Notes under the pieces: generated by a model
Databases searched by the model: none
Told to the model about the DNA's origin: nothing
What the model saw: only the letters and a program-made list of their open reading frames with translations
DNA from: Pseudoalteromonas sp. A25
Lineage (GTDB): Bacteria > Pseudomonadota > Gammaproteobacteria > Enterobacterales > Alteromonadaceae
Reading direction: 5' to 3'
Length of the DNA: 64,000 nt
NCBI RefSeq assembly: GCF_009176705.1
Contig: NZ_AP021846.1
Location: 404,001 to 468,000, forward strand
Shown here: piece by piece, positions 5,113 through 59,749 of the stretch
Layout of the letters: each line of letters begins with the position of its first letter
Position numbering within the stretch: position 1 is the first letter of the stretch
Position numbers and translations under genes: made by a program

Positions 5113-5155
5113 CCCGCGCTGGTATTAGCGAGTCACTGAGGATATGTGGATCTGT

Positions 5156-44444: not shown

Positions 44445-45560
44445 GTGAAAGTACTTACAGTATTCGGCACAAGACCAGAAGCCATCAAAATGGCACCTTT
44501 AGTACATGCACTAGAGCAAGATAAACGCTTTGACGCAAAGGTTTGTGTTACAGCTCAGCATAGAGAGATGCTGGATCAGGTGCTTGAATTATTTAAAATC
44601 ACCCCAGACTATGATTTAAACTTGATGAAAGCTGGGCAAACGTTACCCGAAGTCACAAGCCGAGTTTTGTTAGAGCTTACTCCTATACTAAAAGAGTTTA
44701 AGCCCGATGTTTTGTTAGTTCATGGTGATACCGCAACAACATTTGCAGCAAGTCTAGCGGCTTATTATGAGCAAATCGCGGTCGGCCACGTTGAAGCGGG
44801 TTTGCGTACGGGTGATATTTACTCTCCATGGCCAGAAGAAGCAAACCGAAAGCTGACGGGAGCACTCACCAAATATCATTTTGCACCTACAGCAACCTCT
44901 AAACAGAACTTACTTGCTGAAAATTACCAAGATGACACCATATTTGTTACGGGTAATACTGTGATAGACGCTTTGCTGATAGTGAAAAAACAAATTGAGA
45001 CGGATTCTGATCTCAACAATACACTGGCTGCACAATTTCCTATGCTTGATGAAAAGAAAAAGCTTATCTTGGTTACCGGCCATCGCAGAGAGAGCTTTGG
45101 TGGCGGGTTTGAGCGCATTTGTGAAGCGCTCGCTAAAACCGCAAAAGCGCACCCAAACTGCCAGATCATTTACCCAGTTCACTTAAACCCAAATGTTCAA
45201 GAACCAGTTAAACGTATACTACGCGATATAAACAATGTTTACTTAATAGAACCCCAGCAATATTTGCCCTTTGTTTATTTAATGAATAAAGCCTATGTTA
45301 TTTTAACAGACTCTGGCGGCATTCAGGAAGAAGCGCCAAGCTTAGGCAAGCCAGTTTTGGTTATGCGCGATACTACTGAGCGCCCTGAAGCAGTTGCAGC
45401 TGGGACAGTAAAGTTAGTTGGGACTAACGTTGAAGCAATCACTTCTTCACTTGATGAACTTTTAATAAATAAAAGAAGCTATGAGCAAATGAGCAGAGCG
45501 CATAACCCTTATGGCGACGGCAAAGCATGCACGAGAATTTGTGATATTTTGGCTCAATAA
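44445..45560 (+). CDS. wecB: UDP-GlcNAc 2-epimerase (non-hydrolysing) WecB
   Basis: Converts UDP-GlcNAc to UDP-ManNAc in the cytoplasm, 371 aa. Family blocks are [14 protein letters not shown] at the N-terminus, [37 protein letters not shown], and later [12 protein letters not shown] and [29 protein letters not shown] in two conserved parts. The start is GTG with GGGA six bases upstream. With wecC it makes UDP-ManNAcA. The hydrolysing NeuC/LegG type is a related family, but the WecB-like signature here fits the non-hydrolysing enzyme. Confidence 0.93.
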
Positions 45561-45601
45561 AAACAAACAGTTTTAACCTCCTATATTTTAAAAGGGATAG
45601 T

Positions 45602-46864
45602 ATGTCTTTCAATACAATTTCGGTCATTGGGCTGGGTTATATTGGCTTGCCAACCGCAGCCATGTTCGCCTCTCGTAAAAAGAAAGTAATTGGTGTTGAT
45701 GTTAATCAACATGCAGTAGACACAATCAACCGAGGTGAAATACACATTGTTGAGCCTGAGCTAGATATGATTGTTCATGCAGCAGTAAAAGAAGGCTACC
45801 TCAAAGCAACGCTCACCCCTGAACAAGCCGATGTATTTTTAATCGCAGTGCCTACACCTTTTAAAAACAACGATTCCACAATTCCAGAACCAGACCTTAG
45901 TTATATCCAAAAGGCCAGTGAAGCCATTGCGCCGTTACTAAAAAAAGGGGATTTAGTGATTCTGGAATCGACCTCTCCAGTGGGGGCGACGGAACAAATG
46001 GCAGACTGGCTAGCTGCAGCTCGCCCTGATTTAAGCTTCCCACAAAACGCTGGGGAAAATGCCGATGTTAATATTGCCTACTGCCCTGAACGCGTATTAC
46101 CTGGGCATGTGGTACGTGAGTTAGTCGAAAATGACCGTGTAATTGGGGGCATAACAGCAAAATGCTCGGTTAGAGCGGTAGAGTTATATAAAGCGTTTGT
46201 AAAAGGCGAGTGTGTAATTACCAACGCACGAACAGCTGAAATGGCAAAGTTAACAGAAAACTCTTGCCGTGATGTACAAATTGCATTTGCCAATGAGCTA
46301 TCTATTATTTGTGACAAACTTGACATCGATGTGTGGGAACTCATTTCACTCGCCAATCGCCACCCACGCATCAACATTTTGCAGCCAGGTCCAGGTGTTG
46401 GCGGGCACTGTATTGCAGTAGACCCTTGGTTTATTGTGAGTACTGCACCAGAAGAAGCAAAACTTATACATACAGCGCGCAAAATAAATGATGCGAAGCC
46501 AGAATGGGTAATTGATAAAGTAAAAATTGTTATTGCAGAGTTTCTTCAAGCAAATCCTGATAAGACAGCGAAAGATATAACTATCGCTTGTTACGGATTA
46601 GCGTTCAAACCTGACATTGATGATTTGCGCGAAAGTCCAGCTCTTAATATTACTAGGCGTTTAGCTGAGTTCCATACTGGTGCCATTCTTGCGGTGGAGC
46701 CTAATATCAATAGCATAGAAGGTATTTCTGCGAATATTGAGTTAGCTTCATTTGAGGCTGCCAAAGCGCATGCAAATATTCACTTGGTGCTAGTAGAACA
46801 TAAAGAATTTAAAGCGTCTAAGTTTCATGCTCAATATATAATTGATACAAAAGGGATTTGGTAA
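45602..46864 (+). CDS. wecC: UDP-ManNAc dehydrogenase WecC
   Basis: NAD-dependent oxidation of UDP-ManNAc to UDP-ManNAcA, 420 aa. The Rossmann motif is GLGYIGLPTAAMFA (about 10-23), followed by ESTSPVGATEQM, ARTAEMAKLTENSCRDVQIAFANE in part, and the catalytic Cys270 in GGHCIAVDPWF. The C-terminal domain carries YGLAFKPDIDDLRESPAL. An AAAAGGGA site precedes the ATG. Its product is a precursor for a glycan containing ManNAcA; the WecG-like enzyme at 28912 is a candidate transferase. Confidence 0.93.
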   Translation: MSFNTISVIGLGYIGLPTAAMFASRKKKVIGVDVNQHAVDTINRGEIHIVEPELDMIVHAAVKEGYLKATLTPEQADVFLIAVPTPFKNNDSTIPEPDLSYIQKASEAIAPLLKKGDLVILESTSPVGATEQMADWLAAARPDLSFPQNAGENADVNIAYCPERVLPGHVVRELVENDRVIGGITAKCSVRAVELYKAFVKGECVITNARTAEMAKLTENSCRDVQIAFANELSIICDKLDIDVWELISLANRHPRINILQPGPGVGGHCIAVDPWFIVSTAPEEAKLIHTARKINDAKPEWVIDKVKIVIAEFLQANPDKTAKDITIACYGLAFKPDIDDLRESPALNITRRLAEFHTGAILAVEPNINSIEGISANIELASFEAAKAHANIHLVLVEHKEFKASKFHAQYIIDTKGIW

Positions 46865-48055
46865 GTGAATAATATTTTATCTCTCATTGGTCGTGAAAAA
46901 GAACTTTTTACACAAGACATTACAAAACATAGAGTAGAATTACAGCGCATTGTATCAAAATCTCGTTTCTTGGTATTAGGCGGTGCAGGCTCTATAGGTC
47001 AAGCTGTAACAAAAGAGATCTTTAAACGTAACCCAGCCAAATTGCATGTTATAGACATCAGTGAAAATAACATGGTTGAATTAGTTCGCGATATCCGTAG
47101 TTCCTTTGGTTACATTGATGGTGAATTTAAAACATTTGCGCTCGATATAGGCTCGACAGAGTACGATGCTTTTATTAAAGCTGATGGCCAATATGATTAT
47201 GTATTGAACCTATCTGCCTTAAAGCATGTACGAAGCGAAAAAGATCCGTTTACCCTCATGCGAATGATCAACGTTAATGTATTTAACACGGATAAAACAA
47301 TCCAGCAGTCCATTGATGCTGGCGTTAAAAAGTACTTCTGTGTTTCGACAGACAAAGCCGCTAACCCCGTCAATATGATGGGCGCGTCAAAGCGCATTAT
47401 GGAGATGTTCCTGATGCGCCGCAGCAAAGAAATTGATATTTCTACTGCAAGGTTTGCAAATGTGGCGTTTTCAGATGGCTCACTTTTACATGGCTTTAAC
47501 CAACGCATCGAGAAGCAGCAGCCGATTGTCGCACCTAGCGATATCAAAAGATACTTTGTTGTACCGCAGGAGTCAGGCGAATTATGCATAATGTCATGCA
47601 TCTTTGGGGATAATCGCGATATTTTCTTTCCAAAATTAAGTGAATCTTTACACCTAATTACTTTTGCAGATATCGCCGTTAAGTACCTTGAGCAAAGAGG
47701 ATATGAACCACACTTGTGTGATAATGAACAAGAGGCAAGAGAGCTTGCGAAAACGCTACCAGCACAAGGCAAATGGCCTTGTCTTTTCACCGAAAGTGAT
47801 ACCACGGGTGAAAAGGATTTCGAAGAGTTCTTTACTGATAAAGAAGAACTGGATATGACTCGCTTTGAGAATCTGGGCATTATTAAAAATGAACCTGAAT
47901 ATGACCAAGAGTTATTGAGTCTTTTCGAAGCACAAATTGCGAATATGAAAACCGAACAGGCGTGGAGCAAAGAACAAATTGTCGAGCTGTTCTTTACCAT
48001 GATCCCTGACTTTGGCCATAAAGAGACTGGCAAGTACCTTGATAGCAAAATGTAA
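46865..48055 (+). CDS. legB: Nucleotide-GlcNAc 4,6-dehydratase LegB
   Basis: SDR-family sugar-nucleotide 4,6-dehydratase, 396 aa, first committed step toward legionaminic-type nonulosonic acids. The Rossmann motif FLVLGGAGSIGQAV is near residue 35, and KYFCVSTDKAANPVNMMGASKRIME gives the family catalytic region in two blocks. The SDG of VAFSDGSLLHGF and the long C-terminal extension match LegB rather than PseB, which is shorter. The GTG start has AAGGGA eight bases upstream. Given a ptmE gene downstream, the substrate may be GDP-GlcNAc as in Campylobacter; UDP-GlcNAc is the alternative. Confidence 0.83.
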   Translation: MNNILSLIGREKELFTQDITKHRVELQRIVSKSRFLVLGGAGSIGQAVTKEIFKRNPAKLHVIDISENNMVELVRDIRSSFGYIDGEFKTFALDIGSTEYDAFIKADGQYDYVLNLSALKHVRSEKDPFTLMRMINVNVFNTDKTIQQSIDAGVKKYFCVSTDKAANPVNMMGASKRIMEMFLMRRSKEIDISTARFANVAFSDGSLLHGFNQRIEKQQPIVAPSDIKRYFVVPQESGELCIMSCIFGDNRDIFFPKLSESLHLITFADIAVKYLEQRGYEPHLCDNEQEARELAKTLPAQGKWPCLFTESDTTGEKDFEEFFTDKEELDMTRFENLGIIKNEPEYDQELLSLFEAQIANMKTEQAWSKEQIVELFFTMIPDFGHKETGKYLDSKM

Positions 48056-48064
48056 GGGCTGAGA

Positions 48065-49210
48065 ATGAATGCACAATTACTGGTAGAGTTTGTACGCGAT
48101 CAATACAAAACACAGAATTTTATCCCGTTACACGCTCCTACTTTTGCTGGTAATGAGAAAGCTTATGTGTCGGAGACTATCGATAGTACGTTTGTTTCTA
48201 GTGTGGGTAAGTTTGTTGGCGACTTTGAGCGTAAAATAGAGGCTTTTACTGGCAGCCCTAGCGCGATTGCAACAACGAATGGCACTGCGGCATTGCATAC
48301 AGCCCTGTATATGGCTGATGTGCAACGTGGTGATTTAGTTATTACACAAGCGCTTACGTTTGTTGCGACGTGTAATGCATTATTCCATATGGGTGCGGAA
48401 CCTGTTTTTGTAGATGTCTCGCCAATTAGTTTGGGCTTATGTCCAAAAGCTGTAGACAACTACTTATCAGAGCATGCGCAATTGAATGAACACGGTTGTG
48501 TGCATAAGCAAACAGGACAAAGAATCAAAGCAGTTGTCCCAATGCATACCTTTGGCCACCCCGTAGAGTTAGATGAACTGGTGGAAGTTTGCTGTAAATG
48601 GCAATTAACCTTAGTTGAAGATGCCGCAGAAAGTTTAGGTTCTTTTTATAAGGGGAAACATACCGGAACGTTTGGTGATTTTAGTGCGGTTAGCTTTAAT
48701 GGAAACAAAATTATCACTACCGGCGGCGGTGGTATGGTTTTATGCAAAACCTCGGAGTTGGGCAAGCGTACCAAACACATAACAACCACAGCAAAAGTGC
48801 CACACCCCTACGAGTTCTTTCATGATGAGCCTGGTTTTAACTATCGTTTGCCAAATTTAAATGCGGCATTAGGCTGTGCACAAATGGAAAGTTTGAATGC
48901 TTATTTAAGTGACAAGCGAGCGCTGGCCGAGCGTTATAGTGCGCTGTTTGAAGGTACAGAATATAACTTTGTAAAAGAGCCTAAATATGCCAAATCGAAC
49001 TATTGGCTGAATGCGGTGATTTGTGAAGATAAGGCAGCGAGAGATTTGTTGCTTAAGGAAACCAATGAAGCAGGGATTATGACTCGACCAGTCTGGCAAT
49101 TAATGCATCGTCTTCCTGCTTTTAGTGAGTGTTTGAAAGGTGACTTGTCTCACTCGCTTTGGTTTGAAGAAAGGTTAGTGAATATACCTAGCAGCCCTGT
49201 GAACATATAA
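48065..49210 (+). CDS. legC: PLP-dependent aminotransferase LegC
   Basis: DegT-family aminotransferase, 381 aa, that adds the 4-amino group to the 4-keto sugar from LegB. It opens with FIPLHAPTFAGNEKAYVSETIDS-like sequence, then TNGTAALHTALYMADVQ, LVEDAAESLGSFYKG, and PLP Lys215 in SFNGNKIITTGGGGM. The N-terminus and glycine-rich tail of the lysine motif are typical of LegC. It is nine bases downstream of legB. The next gene is the expected N-acyltransferase. Confidence 0.87.
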   Translation: MNAQLLVEFVRDQYKTQNFIPLHAPTFAGNEKAYVSETIDSTFVSSVGKFVGDFERKIEAFTGSPSAIATTNGTAALHTALYMADVQRGDLVITQALTFVATCNALFHMGAEPVFVDVSPISLGLCPKAVDNYLSEHAQLNEHGCVHKQTGQRIKAVVPMHTFGHPVELDELVEVCCKWQLTLVEDAAESLGSFYKGKHTGTFGDFSAVSFNGNKIITTGGGGMVLCKTSELGKRTKHITTTAKVPHPYEFFHDEPGFNYRLPNLNAALGCAQMESLNAYLSDKRALAERYSALFEGTEYNFVKEPKYAKSNYWLNAVICEDKAARDLLLKETNEAGIMTRPVWQLMHRLPAFSECLKGDLSHSLWFEERLVNIPSSPVNI

Positions 49211-49233
49211 TAAAAAAAACAATAGATTAGCAT

Positions 49234-49884
49234 ATGAATGAAGTATATATAGTTGGAGCAGGTGGGTTAGCTGCCGAGCTTACAGAGTATGTGAAAGATA
49301 ACAATCTAAAAATGGAAGAACAAGTTTCTATTAAAGGTTATTTTGACGTCTCTAGTAAAGCATATTTAGAGAATAAATTTTCATCCCCTTACTTGGGGGA
49401 TGAGAGAGATTACTCCTTTAGTAAAGGTAGCGCTGTACTTATAGCTATTGGGGATGTTAAAGCTAGAAATAGGTGTATTGAGTATTTTTCAAATCTTGAC
49501 GTTTTACTACCAAACTTTATCCATCACTCAGCATTTATTGCTAGCTCAGTAAATATGAAAGGTGGCAATATTATTTGCCCAAATGTAATAATAGGGCCAA
49601 ATGTTATTTTGGGACAAGGAAACTTAATAAACTACTCGAGTGCAATCCCTCATGATTGCCATATAGGGGATGTCAATGTATTTTCACCAAATGTTCAAAT
49701 TACAGGTCAAACAGGAATTGGAAGCAGTAATTTTTTTGGGACATCTGTAACTTGCTTACCAAGAATTAAAATTGGTGATTCAAATAAAATTCAGGCTGGT
49801 ATCGTTGTAAAAAAAGACATAGGAAATGGTCGTATTATTTATTGTGGTAGTAAGAACAATGATATCAAATCGCATAATTTGTGA
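49234..49884 (+). CDS. NeuD/PglD-family sugar N-acyltransferase (LegH-like)
   Basis: Left-handed beta-helix acyltransferase, 216 aa. An N-terminal Rossmann-like domain (VYIVGAGGLAAELTEYV, residues 4-20) precedes hexapeptide repeats from about residue 100 (ICPNVIIGPNVILGQGN, INYSSAIPHDCHIGDVNVF in part). It would N-acetylate the 4-amino sugar made by LegC, the LegH step, using acetyl-CoA. An O-acetyltransferase role like NeuD is the main alternative. The carrier-protein module directly follows, so this enzyme might use an acyl-carrier donor instead. Confidence 0.75.
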   Translation: MNEVYIVGAGGLAAELTEYVKDNNLKMEEQVSIKGYFDVSSKAYLENKFSSPYLGDERDYSFSKGSAVLIAIGDVKARNRCIEYFSNLDVLLPNFIHHSAFIASSVNMKGGNIICPNVIIGPNVILGQGNLINYSSAIPHDCHIGDVNVFSPNVQITGQTGIGSSNFFGTSVTCLPRIKIGDSNKIQAGIVVKKDIGNGRIIYCGSKNNDIKSHNL

Positions 49885-49924
49885 GAGTCTTTACTTTATC
49901 TTTTTATGATTATTAGGAAAAAAA

Positions 49925-50182
49925 ATGTCTATTAGAAATACAATTATTGAAACTTTCCATCAGGTTTTGAACCAAACTGATAGTGAGCTACTAGTTCCTG
50001 AATTACATGATGATGTACAGTTATTGCAGAGTGGTTTAGATTCGCTGGGCTTTGCTATTTTAGTTGCATCCCTAGATGAGAAATTAGGATTTGACCCATT
50101 CACGATGATGGAAGAGCCATTATACCCTTCAACTTTTAGTGAGTTTGTTGGTATTTACGAGAGAATGAGTCCGAATAAATAA
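49925..50182 (+). CDS. Acyl carrier protein
   Basis: An 85-aa acidic carrier protein with the phosphopantetheine site Ser40 in GLDSLGFAILVA. The four-helix ACP layout is visible, with an N-terminal helix (RNTIIETFHQVLN) and acidic loop (PELHDDVQLLQSG). It is preceded by AGGAAAA seven or so bases before ATG and followed two bases after its stop by an adenylating ligase. No ketosynthase, acyltransferase or fatty-acid gene is adjacent, so it is a dedicated carrier for a small acyl group rather than the housekeeping AcpP. A 4'-phosphopantetheinyl transferase must come from elsewhere. Confidence 0.87.
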   Translation: MSIRNTIIETFHQVLNQTDSELLVPELHDDVQLLQSGLDSLGFAILVASLDEKLGFDPFTMMEEPLYPSTFSEFVGIYERMSPNK

Positions 50183-50184
50183 TT

Positions 50185-51516
50185 ATGGATAGTATACAAA
50201 ACGCTAGCCTGAGCGTGCCATCAGGCCGTGTTGCGTTCATCGGTGAAAATACCAGAGTCTTTTATGACGATTTGAATCAAATGGTAAAGCACAATGCTGA
50301 AGCTCTTGACCGTTTACGTGGCGCTACGGCTGTCATTAATGGTAGAGCACGCTTAGAGTTAGCTTTGTTACTATTCCTATTGGATGGTGTTGCAAAGCGC
50401 ATACTATTTCTTCCTCAAGATATAGAGCAAGCTCAACGCAAAGAGTTTTTTAGACTGGCAAACGTCAACTTTGATGTACTTATTAATGACGGGTGCATTG
50501 AGGTAAAAGAAATTACTCCATATCAAGCGGGAGATGTTTCCGCGGTTGTACAAACAGAGTGGGTGATACCAACTTCGGGCACTACAAGTACGCCCAAATT
50601 AGTATCCCATACGTTTGCAAGTTTAACCCGCACTGCAAAAAAAGATATTGAATTGGGCTGTAACTTCGTTTGGGGGCTGGTATTTGATGTATATCGTTTT
50701 TCCGGCTTACAGGTATTGCTTCAATCTTTATTAAGCGGCTCCACGTTGATCGTGCCAGAGGCTGAATCAAGTATGGAAGAAGTCGTAAACCTACTTTGCC
50801 AACATAATTGTAATACACTCTCGGCGACGCCATCATTTTGGCGGAAAATGCTGATGACCAAAGAATCCAAGAGCATAAAGTTCAAAAACATCACATTAGG
50901 TGGTGAAATAGCCGATAGCAATATCCTCAATGCGCTCAAGAGCCGATATCCGGAGGCTGGTATACGGCACATTTATGCTTCGACGGAAGCGGGAGTCGGG
51001 TTCTCAGTCAATGATGGCATAGCAGGCTTTCCGTGCACATATCTAGATGAAGATATCAATGGTATCAAACTAAAAGTAGATGATAGAGGTATTCTTTGGC
51101 TTAAGCCGAATACAAGAGAGCAAAAGTATGTTAATGGCGCCCCTATGTTTGACGAAGACGGCTTTATCAATACAGGTGACCTTGTTGAGTTGAAGGAAGA
51201 GCGTGTTTACTTCTTAGGTAGGGAGTCTGGTGCTATCAATGTTGGTGGTAACAAAGTTCAGCCAGAAGAAGTAGAAAGAACGATTCTTGATAGTGGGTTG
51301 GTAAGTGCAGCTTATGTTTACGCAATAAGCAATCCCATGATGGGCTCATTGGTCTGTGCGAATATTGTTGCTGTTGAAAAGGGCGTTAAAGCTACCGAAC
51401 TGAAGAAGCAGGTTACTATATTTTGTCGAGAGAGGCTGGAGAATTTTAAAGTTCCCGCGTTGTTGAAAATGGTTGAAGAGTTAGAAATAACCAACAGTGG
51501 TAAGTTGAAGAGGTAA
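50185..51516 (+). CDS. AMP-forming acyl ligase (ACP-loading adenylation enzyme)
   Basis: ANL-superfamily adenylating enzyme, 443 aa, shorter than typical acyl-CoA synthetases. Adenylation motifs are PTSGTTSTPKLVSHT from residue 129, IYASTEAGVGFS (A5-like), NTGDLVEL (A7), GRESGAINVGGNKVQPEEVE (A8) and a terminal NSGKLKR (A10 Lys). The N-terminal region before residue 129 is reduced. It starts two bases after the carrier gene, so the obvious partner is that ACP: activation of a carboxylic acid as acyl-AMP, then transfer to the phosphopantetheine. The acid cannot be read from the sequence; small hydroxy, keto or amino acids are possible. Confidence 0.82.
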   Translation: MDSIQNASLSVPSGRVAFIGENTRVFYDDLNQMVKHNAEALDRLRGATAVINGRARLELALLLFLLDGVAKRILFLPQDIEQAQRKEFFRLANVNFDVLINDGCIEVKEITPYQAGDVSAVVQTEWVIPTSGTTSTPKLVSHTFASLTRTAKKDIELGCNFVWGLVFDVYRFSGLQVLLQSLLSGSTLIVPEAESSMEEVVNLLCQHNCNTLSATPSFWRKMLMTKESKSIKFKNITLGGEIADSNILNALKSRYPEAGIRHIYASTEAGVGFSVNDGIAGFPCTYLDEDINGIKLKVDDRGILWLKPNTREQKYVNGAPMFDEDGFINTGDLVELKEERVYFLGRESGAINVGGNKVQPEEVERTILDSGLVSAAYVYAISNPMMGSLVCANIVAVEKGVKATELKKQVTIFCRERLENFKVPALLKMVEELEITNSGKLKR

Positions 51517-51519
51517 ATA

Positions 51520-52242
51520 ATGAATTTAGTAATAGTTACAGGCGCGTCAAAAGGACTAGGTTTAGCTATTAGCTCTAAACTTATCGAAGTAGGCTATAAA
51601 GTTGTTGGGATTAGTAGGACTTTGTCTGAAGAGTTCAAGAGTTTGCGGGAACAAAACTCGGATAGTTTGTTCTTTGAGTCATACGATTTTAATAATGTAA
51701 ATGATATTCAAGAATTAGTACGCCGTATTACCAAAACTTATGGTCCAATTTATGGTTTGGTTAACAATGCTGCTTTGGGACATGATGGTGTCCTTGGAAC
51801 CATGCATGAAAGTCAAATTGAAGAATTGATCAAAGTGAATGTTCAATCCCCAATTTTACTTACAAAATATGCCTGTCGTTCAATGTTAATGAAGCAACAA
51901 GGGCGAATTATTAATGTTAGCTCAATAATCGCATCAACAGGATTTAATGGCTTGTCAGTATACGGCGCCACTAAAGCGTCATTAAACGGTTTTACCAAAT
52001 CATTATCTAGAGAAGTTGGAAAAGCTAATATTACGGTGAATGCTATTGCACCTGGCTTTATGGAAACAGCGATGACCTCGGGTTTACAGGGTGAAAAACT
52101 GGAGAGTATTAGAAGGCGTAGCCCTATGAAAGAAATGGCACGTGTAGAAGATGTAGCGGAAGCCGTAATTTATCTATTGTCTGATGGTGCAAAAAGAGTA
52201 ACTGGCACCACAATAACTGTAGATGCGGGTAGCACAGCATGA
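51520..52242 (+). CDS. FabG-like short-chain dehydrogenase/reductase
   Basis: NAD(P)-dependent SDR, 240 aa, close in style to 3-oxoacyl-ACP reductases. It has TGASKGLGLAI (residues 7-17), NNAALGHDG in place of the usual NNAG, and the catalytic triad in NVSSIIAST and YGATKASLNGF (Tyr-x3-Lys). The C-terminal VTGTTITVDAG is the FabG-type end. In this context it could reduce a 3-ketoacyl group on the carrier protein, for example to 3-hydroxybutyryl; a sugar-nucleotide reductase role (as for PtmA of Campylobacter) is the alternative. It is coupled to the ligase upstream and the GNAT downstream. Confidence 0.82.
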   Translation: MNLVIVTGASKGLGLAISSKLIEVGYKVVGISRTLSEEFKSLREQNSDSLFFESYDFNNVNDIQELVRRITKTYGPIYGLVNNAALGHDGVLGTMHESQIEELIKVNVQSPILLTKYACRSMLMKQQGRIINVSSIIASTGFNGLSVYGATKASLNGFTKSLSREVGKANITVNAIAPGFMETAMTSGLQGEKLESIRRRSPMKEMARVEDVAEAVIYLLSDGAKRVTGTTITVDAGSTA

Positions 52243-53054
52243 GTTCATCTGAAATACAGTATGAAACGGTACTTGATGCACAGCGAAAACAGCAAATTAA
52301 AAATGAGTTTCAGGATTTTTTTACCATTATTTATGGCAGAGCGTTGAATGATAGCAGTTGGCAGCATCAGTTTATTCATTCACCATATAATGACTCACCC
52401 CTGTTTTTGGCATTAGATCGAGGTCGGATTGTAGGATCAGCTTTGATGATAGGACAAAAGGTGCGTCACAAAGGTGAGATTCTAGATTATTACTTGTTCA
52501 CAACATCAGGAGTTTTGAAAGAATACAGAAATAAAGGTGTATATGCCGAGCTTTTAAAGTTACAAAAAGAACATGCTTCGACAAATGGTAAAAAATTTAT
52601 ATTCGCATTTCCGAATGATTTAGCTTATCCGGTTTTAAGGCTCTTCGGTGGGTTTAATGATTTGGTGCAAACTAAGTTGGTTACAACTACTTTAAATAAT
52701 ATAGATTTTTCTGATAAAGGCAACTCTTTACTGTTGGACCAAGACTTTTCGAACTGGCGGTTTGAACACAAAGATTACTGTTTTAGCATAGTAGAAGACA
52801 TGCTGGTTATAACGAAGGAATTTAACAGACAGTTAGATATACTGGCTATTTATGATGCTGAAGCAGCAGAGTTAATAGAAACGCCTTTGACGCCTTTGAA
52901 TGAAGAGCTGAAGGTGAATACTTTAATTGATTGGACTATAGATCACGCACCGTGTGAAGTTATAAGTAACGTTAATGCGGTATACTTTCCTTTAGATAGG
53001 TCCATTGCTATTACCGAAATAAAATTAAATTTGCTAATGTCGGATTTATATTAA
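52239..53054 (+). CDS. GNAT-family N-acyltransferase
   Basis: A 271-aa protein with a GNAT domain in the first 150 residues: LALDRGRIVGSALMIG, then TTSGVLKEYRNKGVYAELLKL, which provides the pyrophosphate-binding R/Q-x-x-G-x-G/A-like turn (RNKGVY). The C-terminal half is a less conserved domain with no motif I recognise. The start overlaps the SDR stop (ATGA) and the end overlaps the PIG-L start (TAATG). I infer that it transfers the carrier-bound acyl group to a sugar amine; acetyl-CoA use is possible. FemAB-like or lipid roles seem less likely. Confidence 0.72.
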   Translation: MSSSEIQYETVLDAQRKQQIKNEFQDFFTIIYGRALNDSSWQHQFIHSPYNDSPLFLALDRGRIVGSALMIGQKVRHKGEILDYYLFTTSGVLKEYRNKGVYAELLKLQKEHASTNGKKFIFAFPNDLAYPVLRLFGGFNDLVQTKLVTTTLNNIDFSDKGNSLLLDQDFSNWRFEHKDYCFSIVEDMLVITKEFNRQLDILAIYDAEAAELIETPLTPLNEELKVNTLIDWTIDHAPCEVISNVNAVYFPLDRSIAITEIKLNLLMSDLY

Positions 53055-53725
53055 TGAAAGAAAAGGTTTTAGTAGTTGCTGTGCACCCTGACGACGAAAC
53101 GCTTGGGGCTGGAGGTGCTTTGTTGAAGCACAAGAGCTTTGGTGATGAGATTCACTGGATGATTGTGACTGATGTAAAGGTAGAAGAGGGTTTTAAAAAA
53201 GAGGCTGTAGAAAAGCGTGAAAGCGAAATGGAAGAGGTTAGTACTATGTATGGTTTTGATTCAGTACATAGGCTAGGGCTGTCAACAATGAGAGTTGATG
53301 AGTATGCAATGAGCGAGTTGATTGGCAAAGTCAGTCAAGTCGTTAATGCCGTTAAACCTTCTGTTATTTATATGCCATTTAAAAGTGACGTCCACAGTGA
53401 CCATCGTGTCATATTTGATGCTGTTTATAGCTGTACTAAATCTTTCCGTTATCCATTTATCAAGAGAGTATTGATGATGGAAACATTAAGTGAGACTGAA
53501 TTTGCTCCTAGCGTAAAGGAAGACAGCTTCATTCCAAACGTGTTTATAGATATCACTGAATTTATGGCGCGAAAGCAAAGCATCATGAAGGTGTTCAAAA
53601 GCGAAATGGGTCCTCACCCATTCCCTCGCAGTGAGAGAAATATTGAAGCGTTAGCAACATATCGTGGTGCAACTGCGGGATGTGAATATGCTGAAAGCTT
53701 TATGCTCTTAAAGGAGATCAAGTAA
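53054..53725 (+). CDS. PIG-L (LmbE) family N-deacetylase
   Basis: Zinc-dependent deacetylase of the PIG-L/LmbE family, 223 aa. Metal and catalytic residues are visible in VAVHPDDETLGAGGAL (His11, Asp13, Asp14) and VHSDHR (His114, Asp116, His117). Family members remove acetyl from GlcNAc-type amides. Next to the acyl-transfer genes, it plausibly frees an amine on the sugar or sugar nucleotide before re-acylation. It ends with a strong AAGGAG at 53711-53716 that serves the following gene. Confidence 0.83.
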   Translation: MKEKVLVVAVHPDDETLGAGGALLKHKSFGDEIHWMIVTDVKVEEGFKKEAVEKRESEMEEVSTMYGFDSVHRLGLSTMRVDEYAMSELIGKVSQVVNAVKPSVIYMPFKSDVHSDHRVIFDAVYSCTKSFRYPFIKRVLMMETLSETEFAPSVKEDSFIPNVFIDITEFMARKQSIMKVFKSEMGPHPFPRSERNIEALATYRGATAGCEYAESFMLLKEIK

Positions 53726-54649
53726 ATTAACGAGAAAATAGTATATGCAACGGTGGTTTACAGCTGTTCGAATTTTGAGTTTTTCATTAATGATTACCTT
53801 GAATCTGTTTTTTCACAAACAGTTCAGAGCTTTGATCTGCTGATTGTGATAGATAACGCTGATGAAGAAAAAGTTCTGAGTGCTTTATCTCGTTACGAAA
53901 AGGCGAGCATAAATGTGCATGTAGTTAATACAGAGGGAAAGTTTTCACCTATTCAGCTTAGAAAAGAGGTCATTTTAAAAGCTTATGGCTTGCAAGCCAA
54001 TACCTTGATATTTTCTGACTTTGACGAGACAGTGGCAGAAAATCGAGTGGAGGAAATCATTAATAATATAACTGACTTTGATTTTGTGTTTAATGACTTT
54101 TACCTAACAGATTCAATGCTTAATAGGTTGAGTCAAGAAAGCTTTTTTTCGAAACGCCCAGTACCAGATATAGTGGATAATTTTGACAGCGTTAAGCTCT
54201 GCAACTTTGTCGGTCTTGGTAGCGTTGCCTTGAATTTAAGTCGTTATAGATTTGACGAATTAGAGTTTCCAGAGACCATTGTGGCTTTAGACTGGTTTAT
54301 TGTAACAAAAGTATTGTTAGATGGTGGAATTGGAAAGAAATTGACTACAACTTATGCCAATTATCGTCAACATGTTGACTCTTTGGTTGGTTTTGATTTT
54401 CGATTAGATAAAAATAAATTGAAGCAAGGAATTAGGGTTAAGAAGTCTCATTATATGGCATTTAGGGATGAGTGTGAGATCTATAATGAACTTTACAATG
54501 AATTACACTCTTTAGAGCAATATATTGCCGAAAAAGGTGAAGAGCAATATATCGATAATATAAACAAACAATTTGATGCTAGCCTATTTTGCTGGTGGGA
54601 AAATATCAAATTATTACCGGAGATTAAACGTGATTTTAAAAGAACTTGA
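53726..54649 (+). CDS. Glycosyltransferase family 2, probable ATT start
   Basis: GT-A glycosyltransferase, 307 aa with the start proposed here. The first strand reads KIVYATVVYSCSNFEFFINDYL, SQTVQSFDLLIVIDN follows, and the DxD-like motif is FSDFDE near residue 97. The first GTG (53753) would cut into the first beta strand and has no Shine-Dalgarno. ATT 53726, the codon after the previous stop, has AAGGAG nine bases upstream and restores the strand; AUU initiation is known for infC and pcnB. The N-terminus remains uncertain (ATA 53738 is another option). Specificity unknown; it overlaps legI by 20 bases. Confidence 0.68.
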   Translation: MNEKIVYATVVYSCSNFEFFINDYLESVFSQTVQSFDLLIVIDNADEEKVLSALSRYEKASINVHVVNTEGKFSPIQLRKEVILKAYGLQANTLIFSDFDETVAENRVEEIINNITDFDFVFNDFYLTDSMLNRLSQESFFSKRPVPDIVDNFDSVKLCNFVGLGSVALNLSRYRFDELEFPETIVALDWFIVTKVLLDGGIGKKLTTTYANYRQHVDSLVGFDFRLDKNKLKQGIRVKKSHYMAFRDECEIYNELYNELHSLEQYIAEKGEEQYIDNINKQFDASLFCWWENIKLLPEIKRDFKRT

Positions 54650-55688
54650 AAAGCCCTACATTATCGCTGAAATTGGATGTAATCATAATGGAGATACAGA
54701 ATTAGGCCTAAAAATGATCAAGGCTGCTAAAGATTGTGGGGCGGACGCAGTTAAATTCCAGTATTTTACAAAAGATAACTTAGTAACAGATAAATATCTT
54801 GATGACTTAGATTCGGGCAATGTTAAGCTTGAAAACGTGGCAGTTTGGAAATCAGAGTCTTTGGGACTTAACACGGTAAGAGAGCAAGTTGCTGCATTTA
54901 CAAACGATGAGAAACAGTTAATTGAGTTTAGAAACTATTGCCGTCAGATAGGTGTTGATTTTGGTTGTACACCAGTCGATGACAAAGGTGTTGAGTTTCT
55001 TAAGCAAATTGAAAGTGACTTTATAAAACTCGCATCTATGGATGCTGACAACCTAGAGATGATTGAAAACTGTATCAAAGCTGATCTTCCTATTATTCTC
55101 TCAACAGGAATGGCTAGTTTACCTGAAATCGATGCTATTTATAATATGTTTAAGAAAAAGGGCTTTTGCAACTTTTCAATGTTACACTGTGTATCAATTT
55201 ATCCGCCTCGAGATGAAATAATCAATCTAAACTTTATTGATACATTGAAATCTTTGTACGATTGTGAAATCGGATATTCGGATCATTCTCTTGGGTTTTC
55301 TATTCCTCTTGCTGCGATTGCCAAGGGTGTCAAAATTATCGAGAAGCACTTTACTCTAGATAAAAATATGGTTGGTTGGGATCATAAAGTTTCTGCTGAT
55401 GAGGCCGACTTAAAAATCATTTGTGAAGAAGGAAATAAAGTATTCCGTTCATTAGGCAGTACATACAAAGTGCTTGCGCCAGAAGAAATTGAAAAAAGGG
55501 AAAAATTCCGCCGAAGTGCAACTGCTGTACAAGATCTACCAAAAGGTCACATATTAACTCGCGAAGATTTCATCTATAAGAGGCCTGGAACGGGGATTTC
55601 ACCAAAAGAAATTGATTACATTTTAGGCCGAAAGTTGAAAGAAGATATCGCTGCGGATACGACTTTAACACTGAGCGTCTTTGAATGA
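54630..55688 (+). CDS. legI: Nonulosonic acid synthase LegI (NeuB family)
   Basis: Condenses a 6-deoxy diamino-mannose type sugar with phosphoenolpyruvate to form a nonulosonic acid, 352 aa. NeuB landmarks are PYIIAEIGCNHNGD near the N-terminus, AVKFQYF, STGMAS, LHCVSIYPP, GYSDHSLGFSIPLAA, EKHFTLD and a C-terminal antifreeze-like SAF domain (FRRSATAVQDLPKGHIL onward). GTG 54630 has GGAG seven bases upstream; earlier in-frame codons lie within the previous gene. Legionaminic, sialic and pseudaminic synthases are hard to separate by eye; the LegB/LegC neighbours favour LegI. Confidence 0.85.
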   Translation: MILKELEKPYIIAEIGCNHNGDTELGLKMIKAAKDCGADAVKFQYFTKDNLVTDKYLDDLDSGNVKLENVAVWKSESLGLNTVREQVAAFTNDEKQLIEFRNYCRQIGVDFGCTPVDDKGVEFLKQIESDFIKLASMDADNLEMIENCIKADLPIILSTGMASLPEIDAIYNMFKKKGFCNFSMLHCVSIYPPRDEIINLNFIDTLKSLYDCEIGYSDHSLGFSIPLAAIAKGVKIIEKHFTLDKNMVGWDHKVSADEADLKIICEEGNKVFRSLGSTYKVLAPEEIEKREKFRRSATAVQDLPKGHILTREDFIYKRPGTGISPKEIDYILGRKLKEDIAADTTLTLSVFE

Positions 55689-56368
55689 TTGCTATCATTC
55701 CTGCAAGGGGGGGCTCGAAAGGTCTCCCCAAAAAAAATATTAAAGATCTGCTAGGTAAGCCGATGATCGCTTATACCATTGAAGCCGCGAAAGCATCGAA
55801 ACATATAACAGATATTATTATTTCAACTGATTGCGAAGAGATTTATCGGATTGCTATTGAGCATGGTGCTAGGGAAACGTTCTTGAGGCCTGCTGAATTA
55901 GCAACGGATGAAGCCCAAGCAATTGACAATTATATCTATACGATAGACAGATTAGAAAAAGACTTTTCCATGAGCATCGAGTCATTTGTGGTGTTGCAAC
56001 CGACATCTCCATTGAGAACGACGGAAGATATTGATAAGTCTATTGAGATGTATAAAAACTCGAATGCGCGATCTGTTATCAGCTACACAGTGGAACATCA
56101 CCCTCTTACGTGGCATAAATACATAAAAGAAGACGGCAGCCTCGAAAATATCTTTGAAGATAAGTTAGATAATAGGCAGAAATTTAGAATGTCGCATTAC
56201 CCAACTGGTGCAGTATACGTATTTAATACTCAGTTGATTAGAAGCCGAAACTACTTCGATGAATCTACTAAGGCTTACATCATGCCAAGAGAACGCTCTG
56301 TCGACATCGATACGGAAGAAGACTTTAGATATGCTGAGTTCTTGCTTGGGAGAAATCGAGATGAGTAG
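55685..56368 (+). CDS. legF: CMP-nonulosonic acid cytidylyltransferase LegF
   Basis: Activates the nonulosonic acid with CTP, 227 aa. The N-terminal nucleotide loop is IIPARGGSKGLPKKNIKDL (residues 4-22), followed by DIIISTDCEEI, FVVLQPTSPLRTTEDI and the metal-binding DIDTEEDF near the C-terminus. Length is normal for NeuA/LegF/PseF enzymes. It overlaps legI by four bases (ATGA) and ptmE by eight. Its product is the donor for nonulosonic acid transfer. Confidence 0.88.
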   Translation: MIAIIPARGGSKGLPKKNIKDLLGKPMIAYTIEAAKASKHITDIIISTDCEEIYRIAIEHGARETFLRPAELATDEAQAIDNYIYTIDRLEKDFSMSIESFVVLQPTSPLRTTEDIDKSIEMYKNSNARSVISYTVEHHPLTWHKYIKEDGSLENIFEDKLDNRQKFRMSHYPTGAVYVFNTQLIRSRNYFDESTKAYIMPRERSVDIDTEEDFRYAEFLLGRNRDE

Positions 56369-57386
56369 TGTTTTAAAGTTAAGTGACAACCCTAGCTTTG
56401 AGTTGGCAATTGAACTACTAGATTCGAATGGAAATGGCATACTGCCAGTAATAGATAAAGATGGTAAGTTTGCTGGAATCATTACTGACGGTGATATTCG
56501 CAAAGCGATTCTTTATAAAAATTTAGATCTTGAAAGCATAATCAATAAAGAGCCTTATACGCTTGACCCGAGCTCAAGTGAGCATCAAAAAGTACAATTT
56601 TTAAAAAGCATTAAGCGTCGTCAATTGCCTTTGGTTGATCACGAAAGAAATTATGTTGGTATGTTTACCTTGGACGAGTTCGATTTCTCGACACGAGATA
56701 ACTGGGTCGTAATTATGGCAGGTGGGCTAGGATCTCGTTTAGGTGAGTTAACGAAAGAACTGCCAAAACCAATGCTACAAGTGCGCGGCAAACCGATTAT
56801 TGAGCGTATTATTGAAAATTTTGTCAAGCAGGGGTTTACTAAGTTTTATTTGGCTGTGAACTATAAAAAAGAGATTATTAAAGACTACTTTCAAGACGGT
56901 AAGAAGTTTGGCATTCAAGTGAGCTATTTGGAAGAAAGTAAGCGCTTAGGTACTGCTGGTGCACTCGCGTTAATTGAAGAGCAGCATAGTGAACCGATGC
57001 TTATTAGCAATGGGGATGTGCTTGCTGACATTAACTATGCTGAATTGGTTGACTTTCATGAACGTTCTTCCAGCATGGCTACTATGTGCGTAAAAGAGTA
57101 TGAACACATAGTCCCCTATGGCGTCATTGAAACGGAAGGTGACAAGATCACTGGCCTAAAGGAAAAGCCTCGCATTCTTTTCAATATTAATAGTGGGGTT
57201 TACTGTATTGATCCAAAAGTTATCAATAGAATACCTCAAGATACTTTTTATGATATGCCAACTTTATTCTCTGAGTTGATGAATGAAGATTTGCCTGTAA
57301 CCGCTTACAGCTATAACCAATACTGGATCGATATTGGGCGCCCAGATGACTTCAAGAAAGCGAACGATTTTAATGAAATTCAATAA
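56361..57386 (+). CDS. ptmE: CBS-domain sugar-1-phosphate nucleotidyltransferase, PtmE-like
   Basis: A 341-aa fusion: two CBS motifs in residues 1-120 (GILPVIDKDGKFAGIITDGD and LPLVDHERNYVGMFTLDEF) joined to a nucleotidyltransferase (VVIMAGGLGSRLGELTKELP from about 124, then ISNGDVLADI). This is the architecture of PtmE, the glucosamine-1-P guanylyltransferase of the Campylobacter legionaminic acid pathway. ATG 56361 has GGGAGA seven bases upstream. Its presence suggests a GDP-sugar route. General mannose or hexose nucleotidyltransferase activity is the alternative. Confidence 0.8.
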   Translation: MSSVLKLSDNPSFELAIELLDSNGNGILPVIDKDGKFAGIITDGDIRKAILYKNLDLESIINKEPYTLDPSSSEHQKVQFLKSIKRRQLPLVDHERNYVGMFTLDEFDFSTRDNWVVIMAGGLGSRLGELTKELPKPMLQVRGKPIIERIIENFVKQGFTKFYLAVNYKKEIIKDYFQDGKKFGIQVSYLEESKRLGTAGALALIEEQHSEPMLISNGDVLADINYAELVDFHERSSSMATMCVKEYEHIVPYGVIETEGDKITGLKEKPRILFNINSGVYCIDPKVINRIPQDTFYDMPTLFSELMNEDLPVTAYSYNQYWIDIGRPDDFKKANDFNEIQ

Positions 57387-58596
57387 TTTGAACCAAAGTG
57401 AAGCACTGGTTTGTATCGGAAGATGTAATAACTTTAATGATATAACATTAAGGTTTTCGAAGGAATTTTTAGGGTTAGAAAAATATACAACAATTTCAGA
57501 ATACCCTGGTGCAGATCACTTTGTCGATTTGCAAAAGCAGAATATATCCGATCTACATTCAGATGGGTGGTTAGCTGTAAAGAATACCATTAGCATTGAA
57601 GAAGTGATTCTTAAAGATCGCCTATTGAGAAATATTAGCTACTTTGAAGCTAAAGAATTAGTCGTTAAAGTGGCTAAGTACTTTTACGAACTTTATTCTA
57701 AAAATAGTTTCAAAGTACTCGTTGTCCATCCTGTAGATAATTATGTCATGGATGTGATGGTGCAAATGGCAGAGAAGTTCAATATTGCTGTTTATGGCGT
57801 TTGTGCATTTTTTGTTGGTGGATATAAAAGAGTATCCGTTTTTGGCGAACACAATGCTATAAGAGAAGTCAGCCCTGAAGAAGTACAGATGTTTAAGAAG
57901 AAAATAACCGATAAATATAAATCACCAATGGTTTCTTCTTTTAGCAAAGCACTTAAAGGTAGCATCAGTTATTACTTTAAGTACAAGTTGAAATATTTAT
58001 ATTTTTATTTATTAAAGCATAAACTTTTAGGTAGGCTAGAATATGACTATATTTCTACACCTCATGCTGCAACGGTAAATAAGCTAACGGATTTATTTCC
58101 ATTTAAGTACTTTAGTACAACTCTACCAGAGAAAGTCTCAGATTATGATATATACATTCCTATGCATTATCATCCTGAAGCGACCATCGAGTATTGGGTG
58201 AATGATACTACCTTTGTAGACTACCTGACCAGCTTAATTGAAGTTGTTAGAAAGTTATCTGATGAAGGTTTTAATGTGTACTTAAAAGAGCATCCTGCAA
58301 TGTGTTTTAGGCAGGATAAATCTTTATATAAAAAGCTGCTTTATATTAAAAATGTAAAGATAATAAGCCCTTACGTTGAAACAGGCCAAGTTTTGGACAT
58401 GTTCAACAACGTCGCTGTTTGGACTGGTAGTACAGGAATAGAAGCTTTGCTTAATGATAAGAAAGTATACTTTATCAGCTCGAATTACTATTTCTCCAAG
58501 CAAAGCGGTTCTTTATATGAAATCAAGCAATTTAAAACGGAAGAAGAAAAAGACGATTTTGTAGAGCATATCTTGAGTAATACAATCGTCTGGTAA
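57373..58596 (+). CDS. Predicted GT-B glycosyltransferase, capsule-synthesis type
   Basis: A 407-aa protein I do not recognise precisely. The C-terminal half has IYIPMHYHPEATIEYWV, VYLKEHPAMCF and WTGSTGIEALLNDKKVYF, the pattern of GT-B enzymes of the capsule-synthesis/KpsC-like group. ATG 57373 overlaps the ptmE stop by 14 bases; an in-frame TTG at 57334 is less likely. Shine-Dalgarno weak. Position right after the CMP-sugar genes makes it a candidate nonulosonic acid transferase, which is inference. Confidence 0.6.
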   Translation: MKFNNLNQSEALVCIGRCNNFNDITLRFSKEFLGLEKYTTISEYPGADHFVDLQKQNISDLHSDGWLAVKNTISIEEVILKDRLLRNISYFEAKELVVKVAKYFYELYSKNSFKVLVVHPVDNYVMDVMVQMAEKFNIAVYGVCAFFVGGYKRVSVFGEHNAIREVSPEEVQMFKKKITDKYKSPMVSSFSKALKGSISYYFKYKLKYLYFYLLKHKLLGRLEYDYISTPHAATVNKLTDLFPFKYFSTTLPEKVSDYDIYIPMHYHPEATIEYWVNDTTFVDYLTSLIEVVRKLSDEGFNVYLKEHPAMCFRQDKSLYKKLLYIKNVKIISPYVETGQVLDMFNNVAVWTGSTGIEALLNDKKVYFISSNYYFSKQSGSLYEIKQFKTEEEKDDFVEHILSNTIVW

Positions 58597-58601
58597 GTTG
58601 T

Positions 58602-59744
58602 ATGTATATAATTATTTTTAGATATGCAATGTATTCTTTGATTGCCTTGGAGGTGATGGTTGTACCTAAGATTTTGCCAGGTAGCGATTACTCTGAGCTT
58701 GAATATTATAAATTCATAATTTTTATGTTTCCTTTTTTGCTAGTTGGTGCTCACTCTGGCTACATGTATTTCCGTTTTACTGAAAAAGAGGATCGGTTTA
58801 ATACCTTAGTGATCTTTGGTGCTTTGCAGCTTGGACTGTTCGCACTTGCTTTTGGCTTAATGACGCAAAATATCTTTTACGCCATTGCTGGTTTATTTAT
58901 GGGTATGATGGTTGTAATTGAACAGCGGGTACAAGTAGAAAAGCTGTTTACCCTCGCGCTCGCAGGTAAGCCGCTTATTTCTGTGTTTTTGGTCTTGGTG
59001 GCGTATTTATCATGGGGTGGGTTTTCACCCCAATTGGACCCTAGCCAGATCCTTTCGTTTTCAGTAATTCTTGGTTTTCTCGCTTGGACGGCGATTGTTG
59101 TGTATTTCATAAAGCATACTACGAGTTTTCAAGAAGGTTTTGAATTTAGTAAGTATATTGACCTGATAAAAAAAGGGTTCTCAATTAATGTTGCTACAAT
59201 TTTATTGATGATGACATTCTTCCTCGATAGATACATAACCAAGCAATATTATCCAGAGTCACTCGCTTCTTACTCTTTTTCATATAATATCATCCAGTTT
59301 GTCATTCTGGCTTTGACTACAATAGGTTATGTAAATACAGTGAAAGTTGGAGAGAAGTTTGATGAGCTTTCGTTTTCTGTTTTGATAAACAAGTTAGTTT
59401 ATACATACAAAGTTTTTGTAGTCATACTGGCGTTGTTTTTTGTCTTTTTATACGTCATTAAGTTCTTTTACACCTTTGAAGGCTTCTTAACTTTATCTGT
59501 CATCATGTCCATATTTTTTGGTAATTTTTTCTGCGTCAATAGCGTTGCATCTATTGCGCTGTATAAAGGTTTCCAAAATAAAGCTGCGTTTTTTTTAGCC
59601 TGTATTTTTGCTGTAAATGTACTGCTTTCTTACTTATTGGCAGAGAGCAACGTTGCTCATTATTGGTTGGTTCTAAAAACTGGGCTGTTACTAAATATTT
59701 ACTCTGTTACCTTTTTGATTATGGCTAAAAATAGGCTGAAATAG
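58602..59744 (+). CDS. wzx: Wzx-like flippase (third of three)
   Basis: Polytopic inner-membrane protein, 380 aa, with about ten to twelve hydrophobic helices. Similarity to the flippase family is visible but weaker than for the other two copies (FLDRYITKQYYPESLASYSFSYNIIQF is a family-like segment). It is a few residues short at the N-terminus relative to typical Wzx, since the usual first helix appears reduced. It lies five bases after the GT-B gene and five before the polymerase, so it probably serves the legionaminic-type repeat. Confidence 0.68.
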   Translation: MYIIIFRYAMYSLIALEVMVVPKILPGSDYSELEYYKFIIFMFPFLLVGAHSGYMYFRFTEKEDRFNTLVIFGALQLGLFALAFGLMTQNIFYAIAGLFMGMMVVIEQRVQVEKLFTLALAGKPLISVFLVLVAYLSWGGFSPQLDPSQILSFSVILGFLAWTAIVVYFIKHTTSFQEGFEFSKYIDLIKKGFSINVATILLMMTFFLDRYITKQYYPESLASYSFSYNIIQFVILALTTIGYVNTVKVGEKFDELSFSVLINKLVYTYKVFVVILALFFVFLYVIKFFYTFEGFLTLSVIMSIFFGNFFCVNSVASIALYKGFQNKAAFFLACIFAVNVLLSYLLAESNVAHYWLVLKTGLLLNIYSVTFLIMAKNRLK

Positions 59745-59749
59745 ACTAT

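Follow-up and report, generated by a model that had tools for sequence, protein, structure and literature searches.

Why should a capsule locus that builds a nonulosonic acid carry its own acyl carrier protein (ACP), ligase and FabG-like short-chain dehydrogenase/reductase (SDR) between legC and legI? The locus in question lies in a 64,000-nt stretch of the genome of Pseudoalteromonas sp. A25 (GCF_009176705.1; NZ_AP021846.1, 404,001 to 468,000), hereafter called the window, whose numbering is used for all coordinates below. There, the three genes are followed by genes for a GNAT N-acyltransferase and a PIG-L family de-N-acetylase. The answer that we think probable, though far from secure, is that the ligase, ACP and SDR make a hydroxyacyl group which a dedicated N-acyltransferase puts on a diamino-sugar precursor before LegI acts. 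Its observed basis is the content and coupling of the genes, the recurrence of the ACP-ligase-SDR trio elsewhere, the adjacency of acyltransferase genes to that trio, and a natural exchange in which the module and LegI are replaced jointly.

All five open reading frames are intact and, like the other genes of the locus from LegB to PtmE, lie on the + strand. The ACP (49925..50182; PF00550, 22.7 bits, cut-off 20.8) is followed by a 443-aa AMP-forming ligase, a candidate acid-ACP ligase (50185..51516; PF00501, 67.7 bits; PF13193, 39.2 bits), by the FabG-like SDR, a candidate 3-oxoacyl-ACP reductase (51520..52242; PF13561, 183.4 bits; TIGR01830, 206.8 bits, below the cut-off of 297.75), by an Eis-like GNAT (52239..53054; PF13527, 32.6 bits) and by the PIG-L protein (53054..53725; PF02585, 76.7 bits, cut-off 28.2), with successive intergenic gaps of 2, 3, -4 and -1 bp. 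The coordinates and domains agree with the original prediction of five coupled genes, which also placed the module correctly after legC and an acyltransferase gene, here NeuD-like. Between PIG-L and legI there is in addition a gene for a GT2-like GT-A fold protein (53753..54649; PF00535, 28.9 bits, cut-off 23.3).

Is this arrangement an accident of one locus? Searches with the ligase at E <= 1e-40 found it in 7 of 147 relatives, 2 of 369 genomes of the class and 15 of 394 of the order (overlapping sets, each counting the window's own genome). We examined 19 loci, identified below by L-numbers (G-numbers denote compared genomes, G000 being the window's own): all 15 places from the order set, one more from the class set (L027) and 3 of the 14 plasmid records that the ligase matched. 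Fourteen make up a clade A (the window, L019-L023, L027-L029 and L106-L110) and five a second ligase group (L024, L030 and L111-L113), the two being separated in the ligase tree with support of 100/99 (33 rows, with a long-branch warning); L109 and L112 lie outside the tree and were assigned from their ACPs and neighbouring genes. The three genes of the trio adjoin one another in the clade-A loci, L109 being a contig end, and in the window they are also co-oriented. Directly adjoining the trio in 14 of the 14 clade-A loci is an acyltransferase-family gene, of at least three fold types: a beta-helix or hexapeptide acyltransferase (L019, L020, L027, L028 and L029), a PseH-like GNAT (L021, L022, L023, L107, L108, L109 and L110) or an Antibiotic_NAT protein (L106), while in the window NeuD precedes the trio and the GNAT follows it. 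These calls are based on Pfam for L019, L021, L022 (whose GNAT match is under the Pfam cut-off), L027, L028, L029, L106, L107, L108 and the window, on similarity for L020, L109 and L110, and on likeness by eye to L110 for L023. Not all of the loci are independent: L022, L023 and L110 come from one genus, and L108 and L109 likewise from a single genus.

The trio turns up in loci for flagellin glycans, amino sugars and capsule, and the surrounding sugar genes differ from case to case. The trio stands near RmlA/RmlB-looking genes and the beta-helix acyltransferase in L019 and L020, and in flagellin loci with PseH-like GNATs in L021, L022, L023, L107, L108 and L110; a NeuD-like gene follows the SDR in L027, and the acyltransferases of L028 and L029 are of the hexapeptide type (the labels Rml, Fdt, PseG and Maf, and some flagellin and FliD labels, were assigned by eye). 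Such recurrence is more than chance. Because the trio is conserved across differing sugar loci, with an acyltransferase adjoining it in every clade-A case, the SDR probably acts on an ACP-bound acyl group and not on the sugar; action on the sugar is further disfavoured by the SDR being 50-67% identical in eight aligned clade-A loci despite their differing sugar genes. Simple inheritance within the genus is disfavoured too, as six of the seven ligase-matching relatives lie outside it and the seventh is the window's own genome. The best protein matches of the ligase include Campylobacterales (P0004, 59%) and Arcobacter (P0038, 55%) records, and the ligase tree groups the window with these matches (100/99; 33 rows, long-branch warning elsewhere). 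A ligase scan of genome contigs returned three distant loci, viral contigs scanned with the GNAT and ligase alignments gave no relatives, and plasmid records scanned for the GNAT gave no homologue.

What the trio might make can be approached through its individual proteins. The GLDSLGFA motif is kept in all nine aligned ACPs, the window's among them, and nine of 11 aligned ligases, again including the window's, carry the motif WGL-YD--RF(A/S)G with its Arg. The nearest solved relatives of the ligase are MenE and a D-alanine carrier ligase. Against NCBIfam it is under the cut-off in all of the best 25 of the 88 models matched; it falls short of both MenE (TIGR01923, 133.3 bits against 330.15) and DltA (NF003417, 58.9 bits against 476), and its gene context differs from that of either, although DltA also loads a carrier protein. 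An amino-acid ligase is expected to carry Asp in the region of the MenE-motif His, and in the window's ligase an Arg aligns with this His. The SDR has the active-site Ser, Tyr and Lys. Among NCBIfam models it scores highest, though under the cut-off, with 3-oxoacyl-ACP reductase, and among solved structures MupS comes first, most of the next ones being 3-oxoacyl-ACP reductases. A reading in which the acid loaded by the ligase is an amino acid or some other acid without a keto group, with the SDR catalysing a different reaction such as reduction of a 2-oxo acid or action on the sugar, strikes us as improbable: the D-alanine carrier ligase among the nearest solved relatives and the N-acetylalanyl groups described by PMC3210612 on Pseudoalteromonas polysaccharides speak for it, but the aligned Arg and the best matches of the SDR speak against it.

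The strongest clue to the acyl group comes from a natural exchange. LegC scores above its cut-off in 30 of the 147 relatives' genomes (own included), and all 30 loci were scored. In two of them, the sister species G004 (L069) and G043 (L070), LegB is 97%, LegC 97-98%, LegF 98% and PtmE 97% identical to the window. Within this frame the stretch 49205..55683 gives no DNA match to L070 by blastn, with flanks 83.8% (44446-49204) and 91.1% (55684-60958) identical; the DNA match of L069 ends again at 58761, so that its Wzx differs. The segment from legC to legF measures 3.5 kb in the sister species against 6.5 kb in the window, and what is replaced comprises NeuD, ACP, ligase, SDR, GNAT, PIG-L, GT2 and LegI. 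In their place stand a 3-hydroxybutyryl-CoA-dehydrogenase-family protein and different versions of NeuD (27% identical), of the GT2-like protein (26%) and of LegI, the last only 41% identical between the alleles against 98% for LegF. The dehydrogenase of L069 has PF02737 and PF00725 domains and reaches 351.4 bits on NF004474 (cut-off 408), and the L070 copy is 99% identical to it. Adjoining it in L069 is NeuD, and no further gene of an acyltransferase family lies between legC and legI there. The locus L072, of the same genus, shows yet another arrangement, matching the window to 49117 and continuing with NeuC, a formyltransferase and PIG-L.

Each allele thus appears to hold a possible 3-oxoacyl-thioester reductase together with an acyltransferase, the two reductases belonging to unrelated families, and this pairing is our strongest reason for taking a hydroxyacyl to be the group added. 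A second pointer in the same direction comes from L106, where a gene 5' of the trio joins a PseH-like GNAT to a MaoC-like domain (L106:6685-7599). For their flagellin islands, PMC7874193 and PMC4875605 propose a lipid-like acyl, or 'liposugar', and the same product could be imagined here. We regard this as very improbable, as the FabG-like SDR is the one fatty-acid enzyme identified between legC and legI, with no ketosynthase, dehydratase or other such enzyme beside it, and the dehydrogenase of the other allele belongs to a short-chain-acyl family.

How, then, might the pathway run? From these data we infer the kind of acid, its loading on the ACP, the direction of the SDR reaction, the position of the acyl group and the order of steps. 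Using ATP, the ligase would activate a short organic acid and load it on the dedicated ACP, and the SDR would convert the ACP-bound acyl to a hydroxyacyl, 3-hydroxybutyryl being the first candidate. A dedicated N-acyltransferase would transfer this group to an amine of a 2,4-diamino-2,4,6-trideoxyhexose precursor, which LegI would then condense with phosphoenolpyruvate. In the version that we prefer, NeuD would acylate the C4 amine made by LegC (the future N7), PIG-L would strip the acetyl from the other amine (the future N5), and this amine would receive the ACP-borne group from the Eis-like GNAT.

The case for PIG-L and GNAT acting as partners draws on other loci. Relatives of PIG-L, 47-51% identical, stand beside a sugar formyltransferase in three of the 29 other LegC loci (L072, L089 and L092, all NeuC-containing), a pairing that fits a general 'acetyl off, other acyl on' pair in which the partner would set the added group. 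The predicted structure of the GNAT is Eis-like, matching the Eis fold across nearly the whole protein, and a position near the PseH type was set aside as the best structural matches, among the families listed, are Eis-like instead. At E <= 1e-10 the GNAT occurs among the 147 relatives in the window's genome only. Its 68 homologues include Aliarcobacter, Arcobacter and Deferribacter records, and for 12 of the 68 the longest contig has the same size as that of one of the 119 best ligase homologues (mean 0.64 at shifted sizes); gene linkage in Arcobacteraceae and Deferribacter is judged by this equality of longest-contig size alone. By the same measure, the GT2-like protein coincides with the ligase in 2 of 52 cases against 0.25, and with the GNAT in 3 of 52 against 0.38, one of the three being a whole-genome contig.

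A different division of labour is possible, if less convincing to us: NeuD would put the ACP-borne acyl on the C4 amine (the future N7), as the sister allele suggests, and the GNAT and PIG-L would work independently of it as a pair, replacing the remaining acetyl with an acyl group derived from CoA. The NeuD gene lies directly 5' of the ACP gene, L027 has its NeuD-like gene after the SDR, NeuD is the sole such acyltransferase beside the dehydrogenase in L069, and elsewhere PIG-L pairs with a formyltransferase without an ACP. On the other side, GNAT homologues share longest-contig sizes with the ligase family, and there is a 4-bp overlap between the SDR and GNAT genes. The original prediction of an ACP-dependent acylation module, in which deacetylation and re-acylation make a coherent scheme, is supported by the conserved trio, the adjoining acyltransferase genes, the dehydrogenase-family allele and the PIG-L genes beside formyltransferases.

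Several observations weigh against a trio-made hydroxyacyl group transferred by the GNAT. No supply of a 3-oxo acid is apparent, and the substrate of the SDR may accordingly be another compound. Either of the two acyltransferases in the locus could use the ACP, and in structure the GNAT best matches enzymes that use acetyl-CoA (such as Eis2 and AAC(2')) rather than acyl-ACP. The dehydrogenase match is under its NCBIfam cut-offs. A dedicated ligase may also mean another acid, for two reasons. Ordinary fatty-acid synthesis makes (R)-3-hydroxybutyryl-ACP and so already supplies this one. Acinetobacter modules with (R)-3-hydroxybutanoyl are, moreover, listed without ACP-module genes in Table 7 of PMC9676051. 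In the second ligase group the Arg motif is missing from both aligned ligases (L024 and L030), the ACPs have diverged where checked, and a ketosynthase III is present as well in L030 (by annotation) and L111 (by Pfam). Those two loci, together with the several ligase loci that are flagellin loci, fail to bear out the earlier supposition that flagellin loci usually use a ketosynthase which a ligase replaces here. Finally, a look for the five-gene set elsewhere found the trio in the same order in other genomes and, among the loci examined, the complete set in the window only.

The sugar itself raises a further question, as the label 'legionaminic' is insecure. LegC (48065..49210) passes TIGR04181 with 533.8 bits against a cut-off of 420. 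The LegI/NeuB-family nonulosonate synthase (54573..55688, with a real start probably 3' of this TTG) reaches PF03102 (230.9 bits) but not the NeuB or PseI cut-offs (TIGR03569, 297.9 bits against 399.65), the LegF/PseF-like CMP transferase (55685..56368) is under the PseF cut-off (TIGR03584, 160.4 bits against 205.7), and no NeuC/LegG hydrolysing 2-epimerase scores above the TIGR03568 cut-off of 235.9 in the whole genome of the window, which speaks against a NeuC encoded elsewhere in it. The best two TIGR03568 matches, of 98.8 and 90.4 bits, are the window's WecB (TIGR00236, 537.2 bits) and a protein 75% identical to it that adjoins a WecC relative; the NeuC of a relative scores 479.3 bits. A LegI-like gene is found in 26 of the 30 LegC loci. 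In stretches of 14-22 kb, 22 of these 26 have NeuC without a GT2-like gene and four (the window, L069, L070 and L081) a GT2-like gene without NeuC, about three independent cases given that L069 and L070 are near-identical. The GT2-like gene of L069 is at L069:6060-6929, and in L081 (L081:8471-9931) the domain, with a PF00535 score just under the cut-off, is fused to NeuD. Across whole genomes, no NeuC scores above the cut-off in G000, G043 and G141, G004 has one elsewhere, and G091, which has NeuC, shows a weak GT2-like match (E 2e-7) far from its LegC locus.

The GT2-like protein has a predicted GT-A fold and a conserved DxD motif. Judged by gene pattern it could possibly replace the LegG step, and judged by its modelled fold it could possibly be a plain glycosyltransferase. 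We entertain, as a doubtful extension, a nonulosonic-acid pathway free of NeuC/LegG in which the GT2-like protein does the release step and the block from acyl supply to LegI moves as a single exchangeable unit. That unit would determine which acyl group is added, a hydroxyacyl formed through ACP, ligase and SDR in one allele and through the CoA dehydrogenase in the other. If that were true, the product would not be ordinary legionaminic acid.

In full, the capsule locus reads WecB, WecC, LegB-like, LegC, NeuD-like, ACP, ligase, SDR, GNAT, PIG-L, GT2-like, LegI-like, LegF-like, PtmE-like and a Capsule_synth protein, after which come two genes that are Wzx- and Wzy-like by eye, neither with an NCBIfam match. 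The LegB-like NDP-HexNAc 4,6-dehydratase (46865..48055; 396 aa) has weak FnlA/PseB matches of 85.2 and 76.0 bits, below the cut-offs. The NeuD/PglD-like left-handed beta-helix sugar N-acyltransferase (49234..49884) passes PF17836 (28.4 bits, cut-off 23.4) and is below the TIGR03570 cut-off (132.8 against 160.8 bits). The sugar-1-phosphate nucleotidyltransferase at 56259..57386, which we take to be PtmE-like with an N-terminal CBS domain, has nucleotidyltransferase matches over about residues 150-370, none above the cut-off among the best 25 of 31. Frames overlap by 110 bp between LegF and PtmE (55685-57386) and by 53 bp between PtmE and Capsule_synth (57334-58596), and the real starts may be more internal. 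The genome (4.74 Mb, two contigs) has 64 PP-binding matches, many of them within very long frames. It also holds a second WecB-WecC pair (G000:C1, near 3124516), 75% and 64% identical to that at 44445-46864. Elsewhere in the window, two adjacent and very similar membrane proteins (3801-4877 and 5144-6232) have, by eye, the look of WecA-type sugar-phosphate transferases.

How much of this is new? The original prediction spoke of an undescribed system, which goes too far. PMC7874193 describes ACP, 3-oxoacyl-ACP reductase and AMP-dependent synthetase genes (orf1-orf3) in the Aeromonas group II flagella glycosylation island of 98 strains, there downstream of pseH in a pseudaminic-acid locus, and PMC4875605 lists the same content (Acp, CaiC and FabG) as fatty-acid genes in enterobacterial flagellin islands, CaiC and FabG occurring in 71 strains; both likenesses are by description. 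The Aeromonas group II island differs from the window in serving flagellin and in having luxE and luxC, and the account of orf1-orf3 in PMC7874193 names no PIG-L or Eis-like GNAT with them, deacetylases being named there in group I islands. The pseudaminic acid derivative of 376.14 Da given in that paper is about 60.0 above the di-N-acetyl form, not the 44 expected for 3-hydroxybutyryl, a mass that is not tied to the trio. Comparable with the paired alleles are the lgaABCHIFG and psaABCGHF modules of A. baumannii, where exchange of an acyltransferase and a neighbouring pathway enzyme accompanies the change from acetyl to (R)-3-hydroxybutanoyl (Leg5Ac7R and Pse5Ac7R; PMC9676051, PMC3628348). 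Unlike the window, those modules have no dedicated ACP, ligase, reductase or deacetylase named in the module descriptions of these sources. The 3-hydroxybutyryl group is itself known on nonulosonates and bacillosamine (PMC3210612, PMC9676051). The trio in flagellin-glycan islands is therefore already in print, and the new part is the capsule set with the Eis-like GNAT and PIG-L, together with the paired alleles, neither of which was found in the open-licence literature searched.

The trio offers a genomic marker for carrier-protein-fed acylation of sugars, and it also suggests that what the 'fatty acid synthesis' genes of flagellin islands provide is a small N-acyl group and not a lipid. The acyl groups that nonulosonic acids carry affect how antigenic a capsule is and how phages recognise it. 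With one allele in the window and the other in its sister species, the function of the module is directly testable through a comparison of the two capsules.

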